DNA of 64,000 nt from Neoalteromonas facilis (lineage in GTDB: Bacteria; Pseudomonadota; Gammaproteobacteria; Enterobacterales; Alteromonadaceae), in contig NZ_PEAY01000001.1 in NCBI RefSeq assembly GCF_002807665.1, positions 744,001-808,000 of the forward strand, given 5' to 3'. The notes under the pieces are model-generated. The model ran no database searches. It saw only the letters and a list, made by a program, of their open reading frames with translations, and was not told where the DNA came from. Made by a program: the position numbers and the translations under genes. The stretch's first letter is position 1, and each line of letters opens with the position of its first letter. Below are positions 55,796 to 64,000 of this stretch, in pieces.

Positions 55796-56836
55796 TCAGA
55801 ATAAGTCAATATCCCCTTCTGCTTGGCTCTTATCGTTGAACACGCCTGAGCGCAATAAATGCTCATATACCGCAACCTTATTCCGTCCTTGTTCTTTAGC
55901 GAAATACAATGCTTGATCCGCTCGCGATACTACACTATTGATAAACTCATTAGGCTTAACCGCGGTTATGCCAACCGAAATCGTAACTTGCCCAACCAAC
56001 GGAAAAGCTTGTTGCGAAATCCAATGACGAAAGTCATCAAAAACCCGTTCAGCATTTTTGGTTTCAATGGGCTGCAATAAAACCAAAAACTCTTCACCGC
56101 CAAAGCGAAAAAGTAAGTCGGATTTTCTAAACCATTCCCGCATTAGTTGAGACATTTTCAGCAACACTTCATCACCGCATAAATGACCGTACACATCATT
56201 CACCTGCTTAAAGTGATCGATATCTATCACACCAAGCCATAAAGCATGAGTATCGACTGGTACTCGTTGTTCATCCTCGTCGGTTTCATATTTGGATTGC
56301 TTGCAGGCCAACTGCTCTTTGATTAACGATTGAAAGCGGCGTTCTAACGAGTGCCGGTTTAATAGCCCGGTTAATTTGTCCTGCTCGCTCAGGGCGATAA
56401 TCATTGCATAGTTGGCATAGACTTTAAGAAATGCGGTTATCAAGGAAAGATTATTTTTACTAAGTTTCGATTGAGTCGTTACTTTCACACACACTTTTTT
56501 ACTATCGCTAATCTCCTGCTCAAGCCAATAGTCGATAGTTTTTTCATGCTCATCAACCACTAATCCATCACTGGCACAAACCAATGACAACTGACTAATT
56601 GTCGATTTTGCGACAACTTCATTTCCCTCTAGAACAGGTGATTTTTCTGCTTGTTTCGAAATAAACAAACGCCGAATTGCGCGCTTACAAATGCCCTCTT
56701 GGCATTCAAACTCGTATAACACAATAGACTCACATTCGATCAAATCTATCAGTGTTACGAGTAAACTTGCTTCCAAAGAATCAATATCTCGACTGCGCGT
56801 TAACGCCACCATGGAATCAAGTAATTTCTTACTCAT
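55796..56836 (-). CDS. Diguanylate cyclase (GAF-like plus GGDEF)
   Basis: 346 residues. N-terminal GAF-like sensory half, then a GGDEF domain with an active GGEEF motif (FRFGGEEFLVLL) and an I-site RxxD five residues before (RKSD). It makes c-di-GMP from two GTP. The last residues read EGDIDLF, the same C-terminus as CheD encoded nearby. The ATG follows the PAS gene stop by three bases, so both are co-translated. Confidence 0.9.
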   Translation of the reverse strand: MSKKLLDSMVALTRSRDIDSLEASLLVTLIDLIECESIVLYEFECQEGICKRAIRRLFISKQAEKSPVLEGNEVVAKSTISQLSLVCASDGLVVDEHEKTIDYWLEQEISDSKKVCVKVTTQSKLSKNNLSLITAFLKVYANYAMIIALSEQDKLTGLLNRHSLERRFQSLIKEQLACKQSKYETDEDEQRVPVDTHALWLGVIDIDHFKQVNDVYGHLCGDEVLLKMSQLMREWFRKSDLLFRFGGEEFLVLLQPIETKNAERVFDDFRHWISQQAFPLVGQVTISVGITAVKPNEFINSVVSRADQALYFAKEQGRNKVAVYEHLLRSGVFNDKSQAEGDIDLF

Positions 56837-56839
56837 CGA

Positions 56840-57922
56840 TTAGAACAACTCATCGTCTTCGTCACTGGTACCGTCTAAACGGGTAAAAATGGCTATCTGC
56901 TTACAGCTGGAAATTATACTGCTATCAAGCCAGTGAATATCCTCTGCAGTTTGTTCTACAAAAACTGCGTATACCCATTCATAGAGGTCGTCGATCAAGC
57001 CTTTAATTGCTTGCGTCACAATAACGTCAAACGGAATTTCGATACTGTGATACATCGCGGCGGAGAGCTCACTTAAGTTAATCGAAATATCAATAAACTC
57101 TTCGATATAAAATACGGCGTTAGCAAACTCTTGTAAGTCGTTAATAAGTTTCTTACGGTCGACTTCATCATAGTTAGTTAAGTCATCTGTTGAAATCGTC
57201 ACGGCAAGTAGTCCCGCAATGTCTTTAAGTTCTGATATCCATGCAGGATCTATTTCAGCGCTACCAATAAACGCAGCAGCACTTAGAGTTCGCTTGTTTT
57301 CCACGCTAATATTGTGTCTGGATGACGTTGTATCGAAATCAAAGAAGTCAGACGTTTGCTCTTCGCTTGAGCTAACTTTGCTGGAATAAGCTGATAACAG
57401 CTCAACATTCTTATCCAGTTCAGCTTTGGCTGTTTCAAGTTCGTTCGAAGCGCCATTTTTTGACAATAACTCTGAAAGAAATAGTTTAAAAAATTTACTG
57501 GATACTTTTAAGCGGTTAAGGCTTTGCCTAAAAGCAGTAAGATCGCGTTGCACCGAGACAAAATATTGGATCTCATTGTGTTCATTTCTAACAGGATATA
57601 CATTCCACTGTACAGGGTATTCGGAACCATCTTTACGATAGTTGATGGTTGCACCTTCAAAACTATCACCTTGCTGAAGGGCTAACTTAAGTCGCTGAAT
57701 GACCGAAGCTTTAGTATTTTTCCCTTGAAATATACGCGGGTTTTTACCGTACAACTCTTCTTTCGTATACCCGGTCATGCGACAAAATTGTGCGTTAGCA
57801 TAAATAATTTTGTGACTATTGGGAATTGCGTCAGTAATAATTACGGACTCAAAACTATGCTCCATGATCACCTCAAAAACGCGAAGTAATTCTTCTCTTT
57901 CCAATGTGTTTACATTTTGCAC
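56840..57922 (-). CDS. PAS-domain protein with coiled coil and acidic -DDELF tail
   Basis: 360 residues. PAS domain at about 15-130 (SVIITDAIPNSHKIIYANAQF, RMTGYTKEELYGKNPRIF), a short coiled coil (ELETAKAELDKNVELLSAY), then about 180 residues of helical sequence I do not recognise (YDEVDRKKLINDLQEFANAVFYIEE) and a C-terminus SDEDDELF. No output domain seen. The PAS stretch reads NPRIFQ where a LOV domain has NCRFLQ, so it is not a flavin photosensor of that type. It starts with GTG and is followed closely by the diguanylate cyclase gene. Confidence 0.8.
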   Translation of the reverse strand: MQNVNTLEREELLRVFEVIMEHSFESVIITDAIPNSHKIIYANAQFCRMTGYTKEELYGKNPRIFQGKNTKASVIQRLKLALQQGDSFEGATINYRKDGSEYPVQWNVYPVRNEHNEIQYFVSVQRDLTAFRQSLNRLKVSSKFFKLFLSELLSKNGASNELETAKAELDKNVELLSAYSSKVSSSEEQTSDFFDFDTTSSRHNISVENKRTLSAAAFIGSAEIDPAWISELKDIAGLLAVTISTDDLTNYDEVDRKKLINDLQEFANAVFYIEEFIDISINLSELSAAMYHSIEIPFDVIVTQAIKGLIDDLYEWVYAVFVEQTAEDIHWLDSSIISSCKQIAIFTRLDGTSDEDDELF

Positions 57923-57988
57923 AACCTAAACCTCTCGTATACTCGGCGTTTTCGCTCAAACAACACTAGTAAGTTTTTATAGCTGATT

Positions 57989-58357
57989 TTACTTCACATT
58001 AGCCAGTAGCAGTTCCAGTGCGCTTTCACCACACAATAGAGACAGATCTTGAGTATCACTCGATTCCAGACTAGAAAACCCCATGCGCCAATTGCCAAAT
58101 AAACGCTCTTCACATGCTGTTTCTGACAGTAATACCACGTCGGTATGACGGGGGTCTTGGGCGATAGTAGTATATAAATCCCTAACTGCATTTTCGTCGC
58201 CCTCTAATGCTTGGAGGAAATGCACGTAGTTACAAATTAACATGCCGGTAATATTAAGCTCTGCGTTTTTCTCGCGCGCTTTGGCTAAAATATTTGCCAA
58301 TGCAGTTGAATCGAACAATGGCTGATTAATTTTACTCACATATACGAGTCTAAACAT
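57989..58357 (-). CDS. BLUF-domain blue-light sensor
   Basis: 122 residues, a stand-alone BLUF domain. All key positions are present: Tyr6 (RLVYVS), Asn35 (LNITGML), Gln49 (HFLQALEG), Trp90 and Met92 (NWRMGF). BLUF proteins bind FAD and change hydrogen bonding around the flavin in blue light. It sits between cheB and the PAS gene on the same strand with a good ribosome site (GAGGGGG), suggesting the chemotaxis module senses light. No output domain is fused, so it must act through a partner. Confidence 0.93.
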   Translation of the reverse strand: MFRLVYVSKINQPLFDSTALANILAKAREKNAELNITGMLICNYVHFLQALEGDENAVRDLYTTIAQDPRHTDVVLLSETACEERLFGNWRMGFSSLESSDTQDLSLLCGESALELLLANVK

Positions 58358-58380
58358 GGTGACCCCCTCGGTATGCAGTG

Positions 58381-59475
58381 TTAATGCCTACGTTGATAAA
58401 ATTGTTCCACGCATGTACTTAATTTTGCCAATGGCAAAACATGCTGTGCATCTACAGCGCCTATTTCATAGGCAGCGCCAGGCATTCCCCACACAACCGA
58501 AGTAGCCTCATCTTGAGCGAACGTTTTACAACCAGCCTGCTTCATGTTTGCAAGCCCCTGCGCACCATCTCGCCCCATCCCCGTTAGTATGATCCCCGTT
58601 GCACCTGCCCCAACATGTTGGGCAATAGAATCAAATAAAACACATACGCTAGGTCTATGACGATTCACCGGTTCGTTGTCATTCAACCTTACACAGAAGC
58701 TGCTGCCGCGCTTGGCAACTTCCATATGCCGACCACCCGGCGCGATATAAATATTACCCTGCTCTAAGGGCTCTCCCGACACAGCTTCTTTCACTGCAAT
58801 CGGTAGCAATGAGTCTAACCGTCGGGCATAAGAAGCGGTAAAACCTGCCGGCAAATGCAAACAGACAACTATGGTTTCTCGACCTGTAAATTTAACCCGC
58901 GTCAGAAGATTCGATAATGCCTCTAGGCCGCCAGTTGAACCGCCAATAGCACAAATTTGATGACCTGCAATGTGCGCTGATTGCAGCTTTGTTTTTTGCT
59001 GAACCTGTTGTGGCCGTGCAGAAGCCTCTGATGCGCCCTGTTGCAATCGCTGTTGTAACTCCAGTAACTTAAGTTTTGGTACTTTTGCAGCAGCGACCAC
59101 TTTTGAACAAATCTCATCACGGTAGGCATTGATTGACTGTGCTAAATTCGCCGGTTTCTCAATAAAATCAATCGCGCCGATATTCAATGCTTCAATGGTA
59201 ACGCCTGCGCCCTCAGCCGTCAGTGTGGAAATCATAACAACCGGCATGGGACGTAACCTCATCAAATTACGCAGAAACGTGATCCCATTCATTTTTGGCA
59301 TTTCGACATCAAGGGTTATTACATCTGGATCGGTGTCTTTGATGACCTGTCTTGCATCATGCGGGTTTTCAGCAATGCCAACTACTTCGGTACGCGGATC
59401 GCTAGCGAAGATGTCCTGCAACACGCTTTGAATTAACTTTGAATCATCGATGATTACAATTCGAATAGGCTTCAT
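58381..59475 (-). CDS. cheB: Chemotaxis methylesterase/deamidase CheB
   Basis: 364 residues. N-terminal receiver (IDDSKLIQS, phosphoacceptor Asp in ITLDVEMPKM, Lys in FIEKPA) and a C-terminal methylesterase with Ser in AIGGSTGGLEAL, His in CLHLPAGF and Asp in GMGRDGAQG. It removes methyl groups from receptors during adaptation. It starts nine bases after cheD on the same strand; the BLUF gene follows. Confidence 0.95.
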   Translation of the reverse strand: MKPIRIVIIDDSKLIQSVLQDIFASDPRTEVVGIAENPHDARQVIKDTDPDVITLDVEMPKMNGITFLRNLMRLRPMPVVMISTLTAEGAGVTIEALNIGAIDFIEKPANLAQSINAYRDEICSKVVAAAKVPKLKLLELQQRLQQGASEASARPQQVQQKTKLQSAHIAGHQICAIGGSTGGLEALSNLLTRVKFTGRETIVVCLHLPAGFTASYARRLDSLLPIAVKEAVSGEPLEQGNIYIAPGGRHMEVAKRGSSFCVRLNDNEPVNRHRPSVCVLFDSIAQHVGAGATGIILTGMGRDGAQGLANMKQAGCKTFAQDEATSVVWGMPGAAYEIGAVDAQHVLPLAKLSTCVEQFYQRRH

Positions 59476-59484
59476 TAGGTTTAC

Positions 59485-60099
59485 TCAAAACAAATCAATA
59501 TCACCATACTGTGTGGTTTCTTTAGCAATCGCTTTTTGATAGCTTTCTTCGCGTTGCTTCACAGTTTCATTATGTAAATGAGCCAGCTTCTTGACCCAAG
59601 CTTTGCCAGTCGTAGGATCAAAGCGAACCTTTCTTGGATGAGGTCCACCCAGATCTGTCGAATCCAACGAAAAGCCCTCTAACGCCATAAACTTTTTCAA
59701 AAACGTAATATTGCTATCGCCAATTGACGTCATTTTCTGAATGATGTGACCACCACCAAAGGCTTTAAATTTGAGTCGTTTTTTCTCGCCACCGGCCTTT
59801 AATACTTCATTGATGAGTTGTTCCATCGCCACATCCCCAAAACGAAAAGACTCACTGGTGACATTACTGGGTGTTTGCTTGCTGGCAGGCAACATAAAGT
59901 GGTTCATTCCACCTACCCGTGCATTTAAATCATAAATGCACACTGACACGCATGACCCCAAAACCGTGGTAATAATCTCCGGCTCTCGCGTAACATAAAA
60001 CTCACCAGGCAATATTTTAGCGGTACTTACTCCGACATTGCGGTCCAAATACCGATTAATATGTTCAAATCCTTTTATGCACTTTGGCAATACACTCAT
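59485..60099 (-). CDS. cheD: Receptor glutamine deamidase CheD
   Basis: 204 residues. Catalytic Cys in TVLGSCVSVCIYD and His in GGMNHFMLPAS, as in CheD of other bacteria; it deamidates receptor glutamines. The protein carries a C-terminal extension ending YGDIDLF, matching the tail of the diguanylate cyclase at 55796. It starts two bases after cheR. Confidence 0.93.
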   Translation of the reverse strand: MSVLPKCIKGFEHINRYLDRNVGVSTAKILPGEFYVTREPEIITTVLGSCVSVCIYDLNARVGGMNHFMLPASKQTPSNVTSESFRFGDVAMEQLINEVLKAGGEKKRLKFKAFGGGHIIQKMTSIGDSNITFLKKFMALEGFSLDSTDLGGPHPRKVRFDPTTGKAWVKKLAHLHNETVKQREESYQKAIAKETTQYGDIDLF

Positions 60100-60101
60100 T
60101 A

Positions 60102-60914
60102 TTACTCGCTTAATTGGTACATGTTTTTACCAATGTTGCGCCAATGTTCTTCAGAGCGAGGAATCGACTCTGAATGTCCTAAAAACAATATGCCACCGAC
60201 TTTCAAGTTTTCTCTGAAGCGAGAAATAATTTCAAGCTTCTTTGGCATTTCAAAATAAATCAGTACGTTACGGCAGAATATATAATCAAACGTTTGATCA
60301 ACGTGCCACGGATTAAATAGGTTTAACTGCTTAAAGTCTATGAGGTTAGTGAGCCTAGGTTTGATACGGCAAAGCCCCTGATTACTGCCTTTCCCTTTGA
60401 AAAAGAACTTTTTCTTTTGTGCATCTGAATATCCGCGAATATCATCTAACGGATAAATTCCCTGCTTAGCCTTATTGAGAACATTAGTGTCTAAATCCGT
60501 AGCTAAAAGCTTTATGTTGATATGACGCTTCTCACACACAGGTATACTGTTGATAAGTATGCTGTAGGGTTCTTGCCCGCTGCTACACCCTGCAGACCAT
60601 ATACTCAAATCTTTTTTATTGAACTGCTCTATTTCAGCTTTAAGTTTAGCGAAGTGGTGAGGCTCTCTCTCAAACGCCGTGACATTGGTCGTGATGGCAT
60701 TAATAAACTCAGAAAATTCATTTTGGTCTTGTTTGACTTTCTTTATGTAGGCAGAGAAGTCATTCATATTTAACGCACGTAAACGCTTAGCTAAGCGTGC
60801 GTAATACATCTCAAATTTGTCATCCGTAATATGGATACCTGAATGGCTATGTGCCAACTTGCGCAGCGTATTAAAATGGTCAAAAGTAAAATCAAACTCT
60901 TTACTTCTAGTCAT
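60102..60914 (-). CDS. cheR: Chemotaxis methyltransferase CheR
   Basis: 270 residues. N-terminal helical domain and SAM domain (IWSAGCSSGQEPYSI, DTNVLNKAKQGIYP, YIFCRNVLIYF). It methylates receptor glutamates; the chemoreceptor here ends in EWEEF, a pentapeptide of the type that docks CheR. The ATG overlaps the upstream STAS gene by 8 bases. Confidence 0.95.
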   Translation of the reverse strand: MTRSKEFDFTFDHFNTLRKLAHSHSGIHITDDKFEMYYARLAKRLRALNMNDFSAYIKKVKQDQNEFSEFINAITTNVTAFEREPHHFAKLKAEIEQFNKKDLSIWSAGCSSGQEPYSILINSIPVCEKRHINIKLLATDLDTNVLNKAKQGIYPLDDIRGYSDAQKKKFFFKGKGSNQGLCRIKPRLTNLIDFKQLNLFNPWHVDQTFDYIFCRNVLIYFEMPKKLEIISRFRENLKVGGILFLGHSESIPRSEEHWRNIGKNMYQLSE

Positions 60915-61461
60915 GGATAGATTCCATGTAACGCGAGAGTGTACTATCGCCTAAAAGTTCTAACTGCTCTGACAACGCTGATGACGCACCGGTTATCTGT
61001 ATGCCGATACCTTTTTGGCCGCAACTCATACAAGCACTGAGTAACAGTTGATAACCACTCGAATCAATTTGCCCCACTTCAGACACATCCACCACTAGCG
61101 GTGTATCTTTATTGCACACTGCGATACTGGACAATAGTTGTTGATGAAATGCTTCAGCGAATTGCACAGTCAGTGACGTATCGGCAACGATACTGTTTGC
61201 CACAGTTTGCTCTGCATTTTCGTCTGCGACATCGGGCTCAGCCGCACTCTCAGAGATATTTTTGTCTTCTTCTGCAGTCGCTGCTATTTCATTGTCTGGT
61301 TCAGGTTCTTCATCACTTAAGCTAGGAATATCGAGCTCTAATGGCGTATCTTCACCTTGGCTCTCACTAACTGCTTGAACATCATCCGAATCCTCTTCTT
61401 GCAACCACTCGAGCGGATCATGGCCAAGCTTTTCACTGTCACTTTTGCTATTTTTGCTCAC
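60907..61461 (-). CDS. Acidic linker plus STAS-domain protein in chemotaxis operon
   Basis: 184 residues: an acidic, low-complexity first half (DEEPEPDNEIAATAEEDKN) and a C-terminal STAS domain (about 90-184) with the phosphorylatable Ser of the family in GQIDSSGYQLLLSA. STAS proteins are partner-switching or scaffold elements. It overlaps ParA by 14 bases and CheR by 8, so it is part of one translational chain with the chemotaxis genes. Role unproven. Confidence 0.85.
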   Translation of the reverse strand: MSKNSKSDSEKLGHDPLEWLQEEDSDDVQAVSESQGEDTPLELDIPSLSDEEPEPDNEIAATAEEDKNISESAAEPDVADENAEQTVANSIVADTSLTVQFAEAFHQQLLSSIAVCNKDTPLVVDVSEVGQIDSSGYQLLLSACMSCGQKGIGIQITGASSALSEQLELLGDSTLSRYMESIHD

Positions 61462-62212
61462 TGTGATTGCCTCTTTCTATTTCGCTCGCTAATGCCATAA
61501 ATTCATCAGCACTCGGACTATCGTTGCTGTATCGGATAACCGATTGCCCGTGGCCTGGGCTCTCAGCAATTGCCGCTCGCTCATGGATCACTTGTTCAGT
61601 GACTTTGCTATTAAAGTACTGACGTATTTTCGCTTCGGCTTCTCGACTAACCGCTCTGTGTTGGAAGCGACTCACCACAACCCACAAATGATTAAAACTG
61701 CCCATAACATTCTCATAGCGCTTGATTTGCTTTGTCATTTCAGACAAACCGCTCAAACCGAGAAAATCAGGCGTAACCGGCACCAGCAACTCCTGACTTG
61801 CAGCAATACCGTTAATCACTAAAAAGCCATTTGATGGCGGACAATCAAACAGCACAAAATCCGCCTGCAATGCTGCATCTTTTGCCAACGATTTACGCAT
61901 TATGAGTCCTCGCCCTGGGCTCATCTGCACCGACTCCAAGCGCATCAACTTTTCACCTGGAGGCACAAGCCTTAAGTTATCCGACAATGTAACGCAAACA
62001 TCAGAAACGCTTGTTTCTCCCTGAATAATCTCGTACACCCCTGGGAGCGATTTATCCAAACACCCGAGGTACTGACTGAGATGTCCTTGTGGGTCCATAT
62101 CGACAGCGACAACTTTGTGTCCCTTTAGCGCCAGCGCATCAGCTAGGTTGGCGCACATAGTTGTCTTGCCAACTCCGCCTTTTTGATTAACGAAACTAAT
62201 GTTTCTTGTCAT
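61448..62212 (-). CDS. ParA/ParC-type ATPase of the chemotaxis cluster
   Basis: 254 residues. Walker A in NQKGGVGKTT (deviant Lys), VVAVDMDPQGHLS, and VLFDCPPSNGF. Such ParA-like ATPases (PpfA, ParC) position and segregate chemoreceptor arrays, which fits its place between cheW and the STAS/cheR genes. The ATG overlaps the cheW stop by one base. Plasmid partition is unlikely as no parB is nearby. Confidence 0.9.
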   Translation of the reverse strand: MTRNISFVNQKGGVGKTTMCANLADALALKGHKVVAVDMDPQGHLSQYLGCLDKSLPGVYEIIQGETSVSDVCVTLSDNLRLVPPGEKLMRLESVQMSPGRGLIMRKSLAKDAALQADFVLFDCPPSNGFLVINGIAASQELLVPVTPDFLGLSGLSEMTKQIKRYENVMGSFNHLWVVVSRFQHRAVSREAEAKIRQYFNSKVTEQVIHERAAIAESPGHGQSVIRYSNDSPSADEFMALASEIERGNHSEQK

Positions 62213-62712: not shown

Positions 62713-64000
62713 TTAAAATTCTTCCCATTCTTCGTCGTTCGACTGATAGGTCTGCTTCACCGATTTGGGCGCTTGAGCACCAGACACTTTAACCGCGGGT
62801 TTAGGTGCTGAAGGCTTAGCAACAGATGCTCTAGGCATTGGTGCAGCACCAGCTGACCCAGTGCCATCATCCTCAACTTGGAAGAAGGATACGCGCTCTA
62901 CCATTTCATCCACTTGCTGTACCGAAGACTGACTAGCCGATGAGGCTTCTTCAGCCAAGGCTGCATTTTGTTGAGTAATATCATCAAGCTCTGCCACAGC
63001 CTGGTTTACTTGGGCGATACCACTGGCCTGTTCATTTGTCGCGTTGTCCATATCAGCGATCAGAGACGACAGTTGATCAATATTGGTCAGAATTTCTTTC
63101 AGAGACTCGCCGCACTGATTAACCAAGTCACTGCCTGTCATAACTTTCGATGAACTATCATCAATCAACTCTTTAATTTCTTTGGCCGACGTCGCCGAAC
63201 GCTGGGCCAAATTCCGCACTTCATTGGCCACAACAGCAAAGCCCCTACCATGCTCTCCGGCTCGTGCGGCTTCAACAGACGCGTTAAGAGCAAGCAAGTT
63301 GGTTTGGAACGCTATTTCATCTATCACACCAATTATCGCGCTAATTTTGTTTGAGCTTTCGGTGATTTCTTCCATTGATTTCACCGCGCTTAAGACGATA
63401 TGTTCGCCCTTATTGGCTTTAACCCGCGCGTCTTCAGCCGCGCGATTCGCTGTCGAGGCATTTTCAGCCGTACTTTTCACATTACCCGTCAACTCTTCTA
63501 AGCTAGCTGCCGTTTCCTCAAGGTTGGATGCTTGTTTTTCGGTACGCTCAGACAATTGGTCATTACCCAACGACAATTCGTGATTCGCTGAACGAATCGA
63601 ATCTGCACTGGTTTTAATCGAGGAAATAACGTTATTAAGACGACGCGTGGTGTCATTCAGTGCATTTTTAACTTCGCCAAACATACCTTGGTAGTCATCA
63701 ACAATCTGCACTCGCATATCCCCTTCAGATACGCGCTGTAACGCTGTATTCACATCGCGTACGAAGGCATTCACAGTCTGTGAAAGTTCATTTAAACCAT
63801 TGGCAATATTGAGGAAAAAGCCTTCCTTATTGTCGGTTGCTATCAGAGCACCCAGGTTACCCTGCGCGACACTGGTAACGAGTTTTTCGACTTCTTGCTC
63901 CGTTTCCACTTGCAGCGTAACGTCAGCCCATTCAACCACGAAACCAATACGCTCACCGTTACCGGTAAATACGGGGTTTGCAATCAAATCAAAGCGTCTT
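62713..64000 (-). CDS. Methyl-accepting chemotaxis protein, C-terminal part (cut by window end)
   Basis: The frame is open to the window end, so the N-terminus lies outside. What is seen: a PAS-like end (NPVFTGNGERIGFVVEWADV), a HAMP-like stretch, the long MCP helical hairpin with the tip IDEIAFQTNLLALNASVEAA and RGFAVVANEVRNLAQRS, an Ala/Pro-rich linker and a C-terminal EWEEF pentapeptide. No membrane segment is visible in the part present. It is the receptor for the cheW-cheR-cheD-cheB cluster downstream. Confidence 0.93.
   Translation of the reverse strand, partial: RRFDLIANPVFTGNGERIGFVVEWADVTLQVETEQEVEKLVTSVAQGNLGALIATDNKEGFFLNIANGLNELSQTVNAFVRDVNTALQRVSEGDMRVQIVDDYQGMFGEVKNALNDTTRRLNNVISSIKTSADSIRSANHELSLGNDQLSERTEKQASNLEETAASLEELTGNVKSTAENASTANRAAEDARVKANKGEHIVLSAVKSMEEITESSNKISAIIGVIDEIAFQTNLLALNASVEAARAGEHGRGFAVVANEVRNLAQRSATSAKEIKELIDDSSSKVMTGSDLVNQCGESLKEILTNIDQLSSLIADMDNATNEQASGIAQVNQAVAELDDITQQNAALAEEASSASQSSVQQVDEMVERVSFFQVEDDGTGSAGAAPMPRASVAKPSAPKPAVKVSGAQAPKSVKQTYQSNDEEWEEF

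Follow-up and report, generated by a model that had tools for sequence, protein, structure and literature searches.

The 64,000-nucleotide stretch of Neoalteromonas facilis DNA analysed here (NCBI RefSeq assembly GCF_002807665.1, contig NZ_PEAY01000001.1, positions 744,001 to 808,000; hereafter the window) carries on its minus strand an F7-like chemosensory gene cluster, a label assigned from gene content as described in PMC7184735 and not from class profiles of CheA, CheB or CheR. Two proteins of this cluster, the chemoreceptor glutamine deamidase CheD and a diguanylate cyclase, end in the same six residues, GDIDLF. This tail represents a short linear motif at the C-terminus, of the form G-[DES]-[IV]-[DE]-L-F, which very probably serves in docking, and it recurs in related clusters on proteins resembling CheZ. 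Since CheZ docks CheY by a tail of its own, sequence comparison points to the cluster's CheY, encoded beside cheA, as the probable partner.

Occurrence and conservation of the tail

The window CheD (204 amino acids; 59485..60099, on the minus strand like all window genes given below) is assigned by Pfam PF03975 (E 8.6e-29, 100.3 bits against a cut-off of 25) and by NCBIfam NF010013 (E 2.6e-69, 232.7 bits against a cut-off of 223), the latter match reaching the last position of the model. It ends ...TTQYGDIDLF, with tail and stop codon at 59485..59505, while the cyclase (346 amino acids; 55796..56836; GGDEF domain, PF00990, E 1.4e-36) ends ...SQAEGDIDLF, with tail and stop codon at 55796..55816. 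The last codons are unlike, namely GATATTGATTTGTTT in CheD and GATATTGACTTATTC in the cyclase, which bears out the original prediction that two proteins of different domain families share the peptide at the protein level. Both owners named there are real, and the genome holds four: a whole-genome pattern search gave seven DNA matches, four of which close reading frames of more than 200 amino acids. The two additional owners are a second GGDEF cyclase on another contig (G000:C2), ending ...ESDIELF, and a receiver-domain protein of 386 amino acids (L003:12429-13589), ending ...TDDDIELF, encoded divergently from cheY and 4.4 kb past the right end of the window. From the amino-acid composition of the window, an end of the form [DE]-[IVM]-[DE]-[LF]-F has a probability of about 1.25e-5, corresponding to 0.044 such ends per genome (3,500 genes assumed) against the four seen. 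The PAS protein between cyclase and CheD (56840..57922; PAS by Pfam), whose end ...SDEDDELF had been taken for a related tail, was dropped as an owner because only one clear orthologue was found and this one (L320, 374 amino acids, 329 bits) ends ...VFVRLQEIE; its DDELF is probably outside the motif.

Conservation was followed in two sets of CheD relatives, the first comprising the best 79 of 459 loci ranked by likeness to the window CheD and the second, a phylum sample, 80 regions picked by hand from a phylum-wide search, in which the class of the window is over-represented. Taken together, 131 of 161 CheDs carry the tail. In the first set 78 CheDs end in [IV]-[DET]-L-F, some with one further residue, the exception being L062, and in the phylum sample the tail is present in 45 of 63 CheD rows with adjoining cheR and cheB and in 7 of 20 rows without them. 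Tailed CheDs occur in many Gamma- and Betaproteobacteria, in Nitrospira and in some Alphaproteobacteria; sampled short CheDs ending ...MKK or similarly have no tail. Six Nitrospira loci show a variant, ...DVTLF, which is matched in three of them by CheZ-like proteins ending ...[SA]VTLF, and the CheD of L135 has the altered tail DIEFDLFQ. A second CheD at about 7.3-7.5 kb of locus L190, matched in two frames, looks broken.

Across 56 dissimilar tailed CheD representatives, entropy is 2.1-3.7 bits at the 24 positions -30 to -7, a variable linker, while all 56 have V/I/L at -4, E/D/T/Q at -3, L/F at -2 and F at -1, positions that are partly fixed by the selection of the sequences. Positions -6 and -5 are free of this selection: G stands at -6 in 39 of the 56 CheDs and in 43 of 59 CheZ-like representatives, and -5 is mostly D, E or S in both. 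Across 25 chosen and aligned CheDs neither L203 nor F204 varies, and the same holds for core residues including the catalytic C50 and H67. The predicted CheD structure has a mean predicted local distance difference test score (pLDDT) of 84.3, and residues 197-204, which include the tail, fall below 50, i.e. they are predicted to be disordered. An invariant L-F end behind a variable linker, at low pLDDT, is the signature of a linear motif, and the earlier idea that the peptide docks its owners to one shared partner gains from both the conservation and the predicted disorder of the tail on CheD.

The range of owners was assessed in 40 relatives, where 46 distinct frames of at least 150 amino acids end in [DE][IVM][DE][LF]F. 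Apart from one unrelated frame that reads, by eye, like a penicillin-binding protein, all belong to a few signalling families: 13 CheDs, 11 McpA-like receptors, 8 GGDEF proteins, 7 proteins of the 386-residue receiver type, 5 other proteins with a QFxDxxxQ motif and 1 other receptor. These counts derive from 97 tail matches, of which 14 ending TGG were dropped and 3 (G267 twice, G216 once) lay outside the set; 81 distinct frames were classified, including matches in the genome itself, the 35 frames below 150 amino acids among them being unlabelled in 33 cases, and family labels were given by BLAST to window and relative proteins. For CheD, neither finding that the original prediction had named as damaging, absence of the tail from orthologues or equal frequency in unrelated proteins, was obtained. 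As to the remaining owners, the receiver gene is divergent to cheY and encodes the tail in four further loci (L013, L310, L311, L320) and stands alone in L312. The tail is common to eight aligned GGDEF proteins, which were picked for having it, and L013 and L320 resemble the window in having tailed GGDEF genes after the cluster. The cyclases near cheB in L163 and L164 have looser versions of the tail, VDSEIF and VDSELFE. The receiver protein was also considered as a phosphatase and rejected, there being by eye no conserved D/E-x3-Q across seven aligned sequences.

CheZ-like proteins carrying the tail

CheZ acts on phosphorylated CheY (CheY-P) and docks CheY by a C-terminal peptide. A Comamonadaceae-type CheZ-like protein of about 150-190 amino acids is encoded in 43 of the best 79 of 459 loci (E <=5e-35), and in all 43 its gene ends 40-76 bases ahead of the matched cheY start. 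These proteins contain the motif LQF[HQ]D-x3-Q and mostly end PVTQSEMDxG[SA][IV][DE]LF. Motif and tail are associated: of the stop-to-stop frames of at least 110 amino acids in 159 loci, 111 contain Q[FY]xDxxxQ and 95 of these have the tail, the 16 others being judged by eye, as against 139 tailed frames, CheDs among them, in the 8,813 that lack the motif. Moreover, 34 aligned CheZ-like proteins (31 Comamonadaceae-type, 3 from Nitrospira) all share Q85, F86, D88, Q92 and the L-F at the end. The motif is not confined to free-standing proteins, as McpA-like receptors encoded after cheB or upstream of cheY hold a QFxDxxxQ segment between receptor domain and tail, and to judge from these sequences clusters without an annotated cheZ may contain a receptor-fused phosphatase. 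Examples of McpA-like proteins with a CheZ-type segment are L041:11645-12802, L052:11686-12855 and the frames ending at 3495 in L144 and at 3790 in L158. A CheZ-like family ahead of cheY is represented by L060:5181-5627 and its orthologues, of which the members scanned matched nothing significantly in Pfam or NCBIfam, and a tailed QF[Y]D-x3-Q family of 182-196 amino acids occurs in L250, L279, L285 and L294.

When their profiles are compared, the CheZ-like groups match one another at E 5e-15 to 3e-4; their alignments to canonical CheZ are weak, and in three of the four D and Q land on its QDLTGQ. The model of a small CheZ-like protein (mean pLDDT 76) predicts a helical hairpin, helices 17-61 and 68-113, with D88 and Q92 on the second helix, followed by a loose linker and a short helix at 137-142 before the tail; this layout resembles that of CheZ. 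Sequence and model together give these owners a D-x3-Q on a predicted helical hairpin, as expected of CheZ. The analogy with the CheZ tail proves the better of the two drawn in the original prediction, the tail being found on CheZ-like proteins, while its second analogy, with the pentapeptide of methyl-accepting chemotaxis proteins, concerns a separate class of C-termini in the same clusters, as set out below. For the gene before cheY in the rhizobial gene order, also considered as CheZ-like, the two proteins scanned were STAS proteins.

CheY as the candidate partner

The CheY encoded beside cheA in this genome has K95, K99 and W106, as against I95, A99 and Y106 in the flagellar CheY of the same genome (E. 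coli numbering). These positions belong to the FliM/CheZ face of CheY (PMC8225110; PMC3774744), and CheZ and FliM bind one common face (PMC3774744). In phylum-sample CheD rows with cheR, cheB and visible cheA, 36 of the 37 CheDs with a tail are accompanied by a pre-cheA CheY that has K/R95, K/R99 and W106, as are 3 of the 13 without one (Fisher 2.9e-7). The association is weakened by the facts that the residue rule was set after the residues had been seen, that the counts ignore descent, and that F8-like clusters make up seven of the ten untailed cases lacking this CheY, with L190 counted twice. Four tailed rows (L016, L145, L147, L185) were reassigned to the CheY class by hand. In some clusters with tailless CheDs the CheY is missing or altered: no CheY was matched before cheA in L141, L156 and L062 (in the last, about 1 kb upstream of cheA is visible), and the CheY of L153 is degenerate. 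The nearest solved relative of the cluster CheY is CheY4 of Vibrio cholerae (E 4.5e-38), which did not bind FliM in pull-downs and for whose cluster no cheZ was found, according to PMC3774744, where the authors expect no binding to CheZ either. CheY1 of Comamonas testosteroni, proposed as a phosphate sink (PMC6391922), would correspond to the cheA-adjacent CheY with a CheZ-like gene upstream.

On this basis the proteins with the tail would dock by it onto the single-domain CheY whose gene adjoins cheA in F7-type clusters, probably in its phosphorylated state and at the alpha4-beta5-alpha5 face that forms the FliM/CheZ site of E. coli CheY. CheZ-like proteins, whether fused to McpA or free-standing, would use the tail as CheZ does, to dephosphorylate CheY-P, and the deamidase activity of CheD would be tied directly to CheY-P through its tail, while the tailed cyclases and the receiver-domain protein of this genus and its relatives would be outputs of CheY or competitors for it. 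Here we infer the dependence on phosphorylation, the phosphatase activity and all effects of docking, and we offer as proposals a direct CheY-P feedback for CheD and a cyclic-di-GMP output for the cyclases. The whole would amount to a shared-docking code of F7 systems, a tentative picture that we consider possible and somewhat short of an even chance, in which a re-shaped CheY recruits by the tail a hidden phosphatase (McpA-fused or free), CheD and, in some genera, cyclases, and in which CheY-P would close its own loop without CheC or canonical CheZ and pass the signal on to cyclic-di-GMP.

A number of observations weigh against CheY docking or its CheZ-like component. The CheZ-like groups match canonical CheZ weakly (HHalign E 0.003-0.22), with the QFYD group aligned elsewhere than on the motif. 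Pfam CheZ (PF04344) stays below threshold on two McpA-like proteins of G216 (20.6 bits against 30.7, E 7e-4) and gave no match in six Comamonadaceae-type proteins, the protein of L049 and four QFYD proteins, while a fold search with the CheZ-like model speaks neither for nor against CheZ, since a long helical hairpin resembles many unrelated structures; generic hairpins were returned, with CheZ absent among the matches listed. No che gene was matched in 20 kb around the QFYD-type proteins of L250, L279, L285 and L294, and 13 clusters of rhizobial gene order, their CheDs mostly tailed, have by eye no tailed CheZ-like gene before cheY. Likewise, no core che gene was matched around the tailed GGDEF genes of L314, L315, L316, L317 and L319; because of these five loci the link between cyclase and cluster is local to this group, so that from the earlier claim for the cyclase the occurrence of tailed GGDEF proteins in relatives is retained and a general proximity to che genes is not. 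In 17 of the 131 tailed CheDs one or two residues follow the final F. As regards CheY itself, L197 combines a K95/K99/W106 CheY with a tailless CheD, L124 and L169 have such a CheY and no proper CheD tail, and L131 has a tailed CheD with no cheY matched in 20 kb; moreover, K95, K99 and W106 may serve the binding of the CheA P2 domain. Finally, in the clusters that we label F8-like (L158-L161, L188-L190) the McpA-like proteins end [DE]ITFF and CheD is tailless. Residue 99 of CheY is Q in L158-L161 and L190 of these, and R or K in L188 and L189. A pairing of tail position -3 (D/E or T) with CheY residue 99, to which the F8-like combination of mostly Q99 with T belongs, was considered and rejected, being broken by L188, L189 and Nitrospira. 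No natural fusion of the tail to an F7-like CheY domain was found by regular expression in the fetched loci.

The foremost alternative is that the tail docks another shared component, i.e. CheA through its P2 domain, CheW, the STAS protein or ParA, which we regard as rather unlikely. CheA is visible in most tailed clusters, and since P2 and FliM use adjacent parts of CheY (PMC7184735), tail and P2 could interact or compete; docking to CheA would leave the CheZ-like owners unexplained. STAS and ParA, which the original prediction had listed among candidate partners, lose ground as general ones, the window proteins being unmatched (E<1e-4) in the 43 loci with a CheZ-like gene and a tailed CheD, where a diverged STAS would escape the search.

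Unlikely, too, is a variant of the receptor pentapeptide that would tether CheR or CheB, or be recognised at their pentapeptide sites, and so bring CheD, McpA and the cyclases to the adaptation enzymes. The two peptides are alike in length, terminal F and acidic residues, and in the phylum sample 45 of the 52 tailed CheDs have cheR and cheB beside them. In Pseudomonas aeruginosa, CheR2 and CheB2 read the Aer2/McpB pentapeptide (PMC7184735; PMC7698151), CheB2 binding that of McpB with a KD of 93 uM (PMC7698151). Against this stands the residue at -4, which is I/V in the tail, with L/F at -2, and W, F or Y in the Aer2-like receptors that end in the pentapeptide. The Aer2-like receptors scoring above 150 bits number 88 (63 from loci 122-201 and 25 from the other set); the end [WFY]-x-x-[FY] occurs in 76 of them and [IV]-x-L-F in none, and the pentapeptide form x-[HFYW]-x2-[HFYW] is found at none of the 161 CheD C-termini, tailed or not; hence tail and pentapeptide coexist without mixing. 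Moreover, none of four CheRs is bound by P. aeruginosa McpA, which has V at -4, i.e. in the second position of the pentapeptide (PMC7184735), and the pentapeptide would leave the tail on proteins with the CheZ motif unexplained.

A C-terminal degradation or localisation signal unrelated to chemotaxis docking is very improbable. Such a role would suit a short, disordered tail with a hydrophobic end, some of whose owners have no che gene matched nearby; it accords poorly with the confinement of 45 of the 46 long tailed frames to few signalling families, with the retention of the acidic residues and with the up to two residues that can follow F. An origin by chance or by common descent of the proteins or their DNA can practically be dismissed, being contradicted by the unlike domains and codons, the excess of ends over expectation and the conservation of the tail behind a variable linker.

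Known systems and neighbouring genes

Docking to CheY, as preferred here, has its closest parallel in the E. coli CheZ tail and the N-terminal FliM peptide, which are likewise acidic-hydrophobic end peptides, CheZ being likewise helical with D-x3-Q. In 16 genomes the canonical CheZ closes with some version of Q-[DVN]-[DE]-VDDLL-[SA]-SLGF, and the genome's own FliM starts SDLLSQDEIDALLHG; the Comamonadaceae tails, mostly PVTQSEMDAGS[IV][DE]LF, include the short helix predicted at 137-142. Unlike E. coli CheZ, the GDIDLF-type core is shorter and of another consensus, the CheY face is altered, and CheD, receptors and cyclases are owners as well. The CheR/CheB pentapeptide of receptors is also C-terminal, ends in F and occurs in the same clusters, but the tail lacks the aromatic residue at -4 and is found on other proteins. 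In the CheC-CheD system of Bacillus subtilis, CheD is also coupled to CheY-P (PMC3513319), but through CheC.

Already known is a conserved C-terminus of F7 McpA, which is in print without a role, described as 'important yet unclear' (PMC7184735); the McpA-like proteins considered here end in the GDIDLF-type motif. The accessible part of that paper draws no connection between this C-terminus and CheD, cyclases, CheZ-like segments or docking to CheY, and no paper connecting the shared tail with CheD, cyclases, CheZ-like proteins or CheY was found in the open-licence literature. Annotated cheZ is absent from early F7 clusters (PMC7184735). Binding of the tail to CheY would offer one explanation for the McpA tail, for these cheZ-less clusters and for a CheY4 that does not bind FliM. 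In addition, the tail could serve as a sequence tag by which more partners might be picked out in any genome, among them cyclases as a possible output of the system, and makes the partners of this CheY cheaply testable by peptide binding.

Starting from cheY and cheA, which lie just past the window edge, the gene order of the cluster is cheW, the Aer2-like receptor, a second cheW, parA, STAS, cheR, cheD, cheB, BLUF, PAS and GGDEF. The Aer2-like chemoreceptor (62713..64000; MCPsignal, PAS and HAMP by Pfam) continues beyond the window to a full length of 845 amino acids (L003:6713-9250), and its end, NDEEWEEF, places it in the W-x-x-F pentapeptide class. The tail is absent from the ParA-like ATPase (61448..62212; named from its sequence by eye), the STAS-domain protein (60907..61461; PF13466), CheR (60102..60914; PF01739, PF03705), CheB (58381..59475; PF01339, PF00072) and the BLUF protein (57989..58357; PF04940, E 9.3e-30). 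The last of these places a blue-light sensor gene within a chemosensory cluster, and a similar gene occupies, by eye, the equal place in locus L013.

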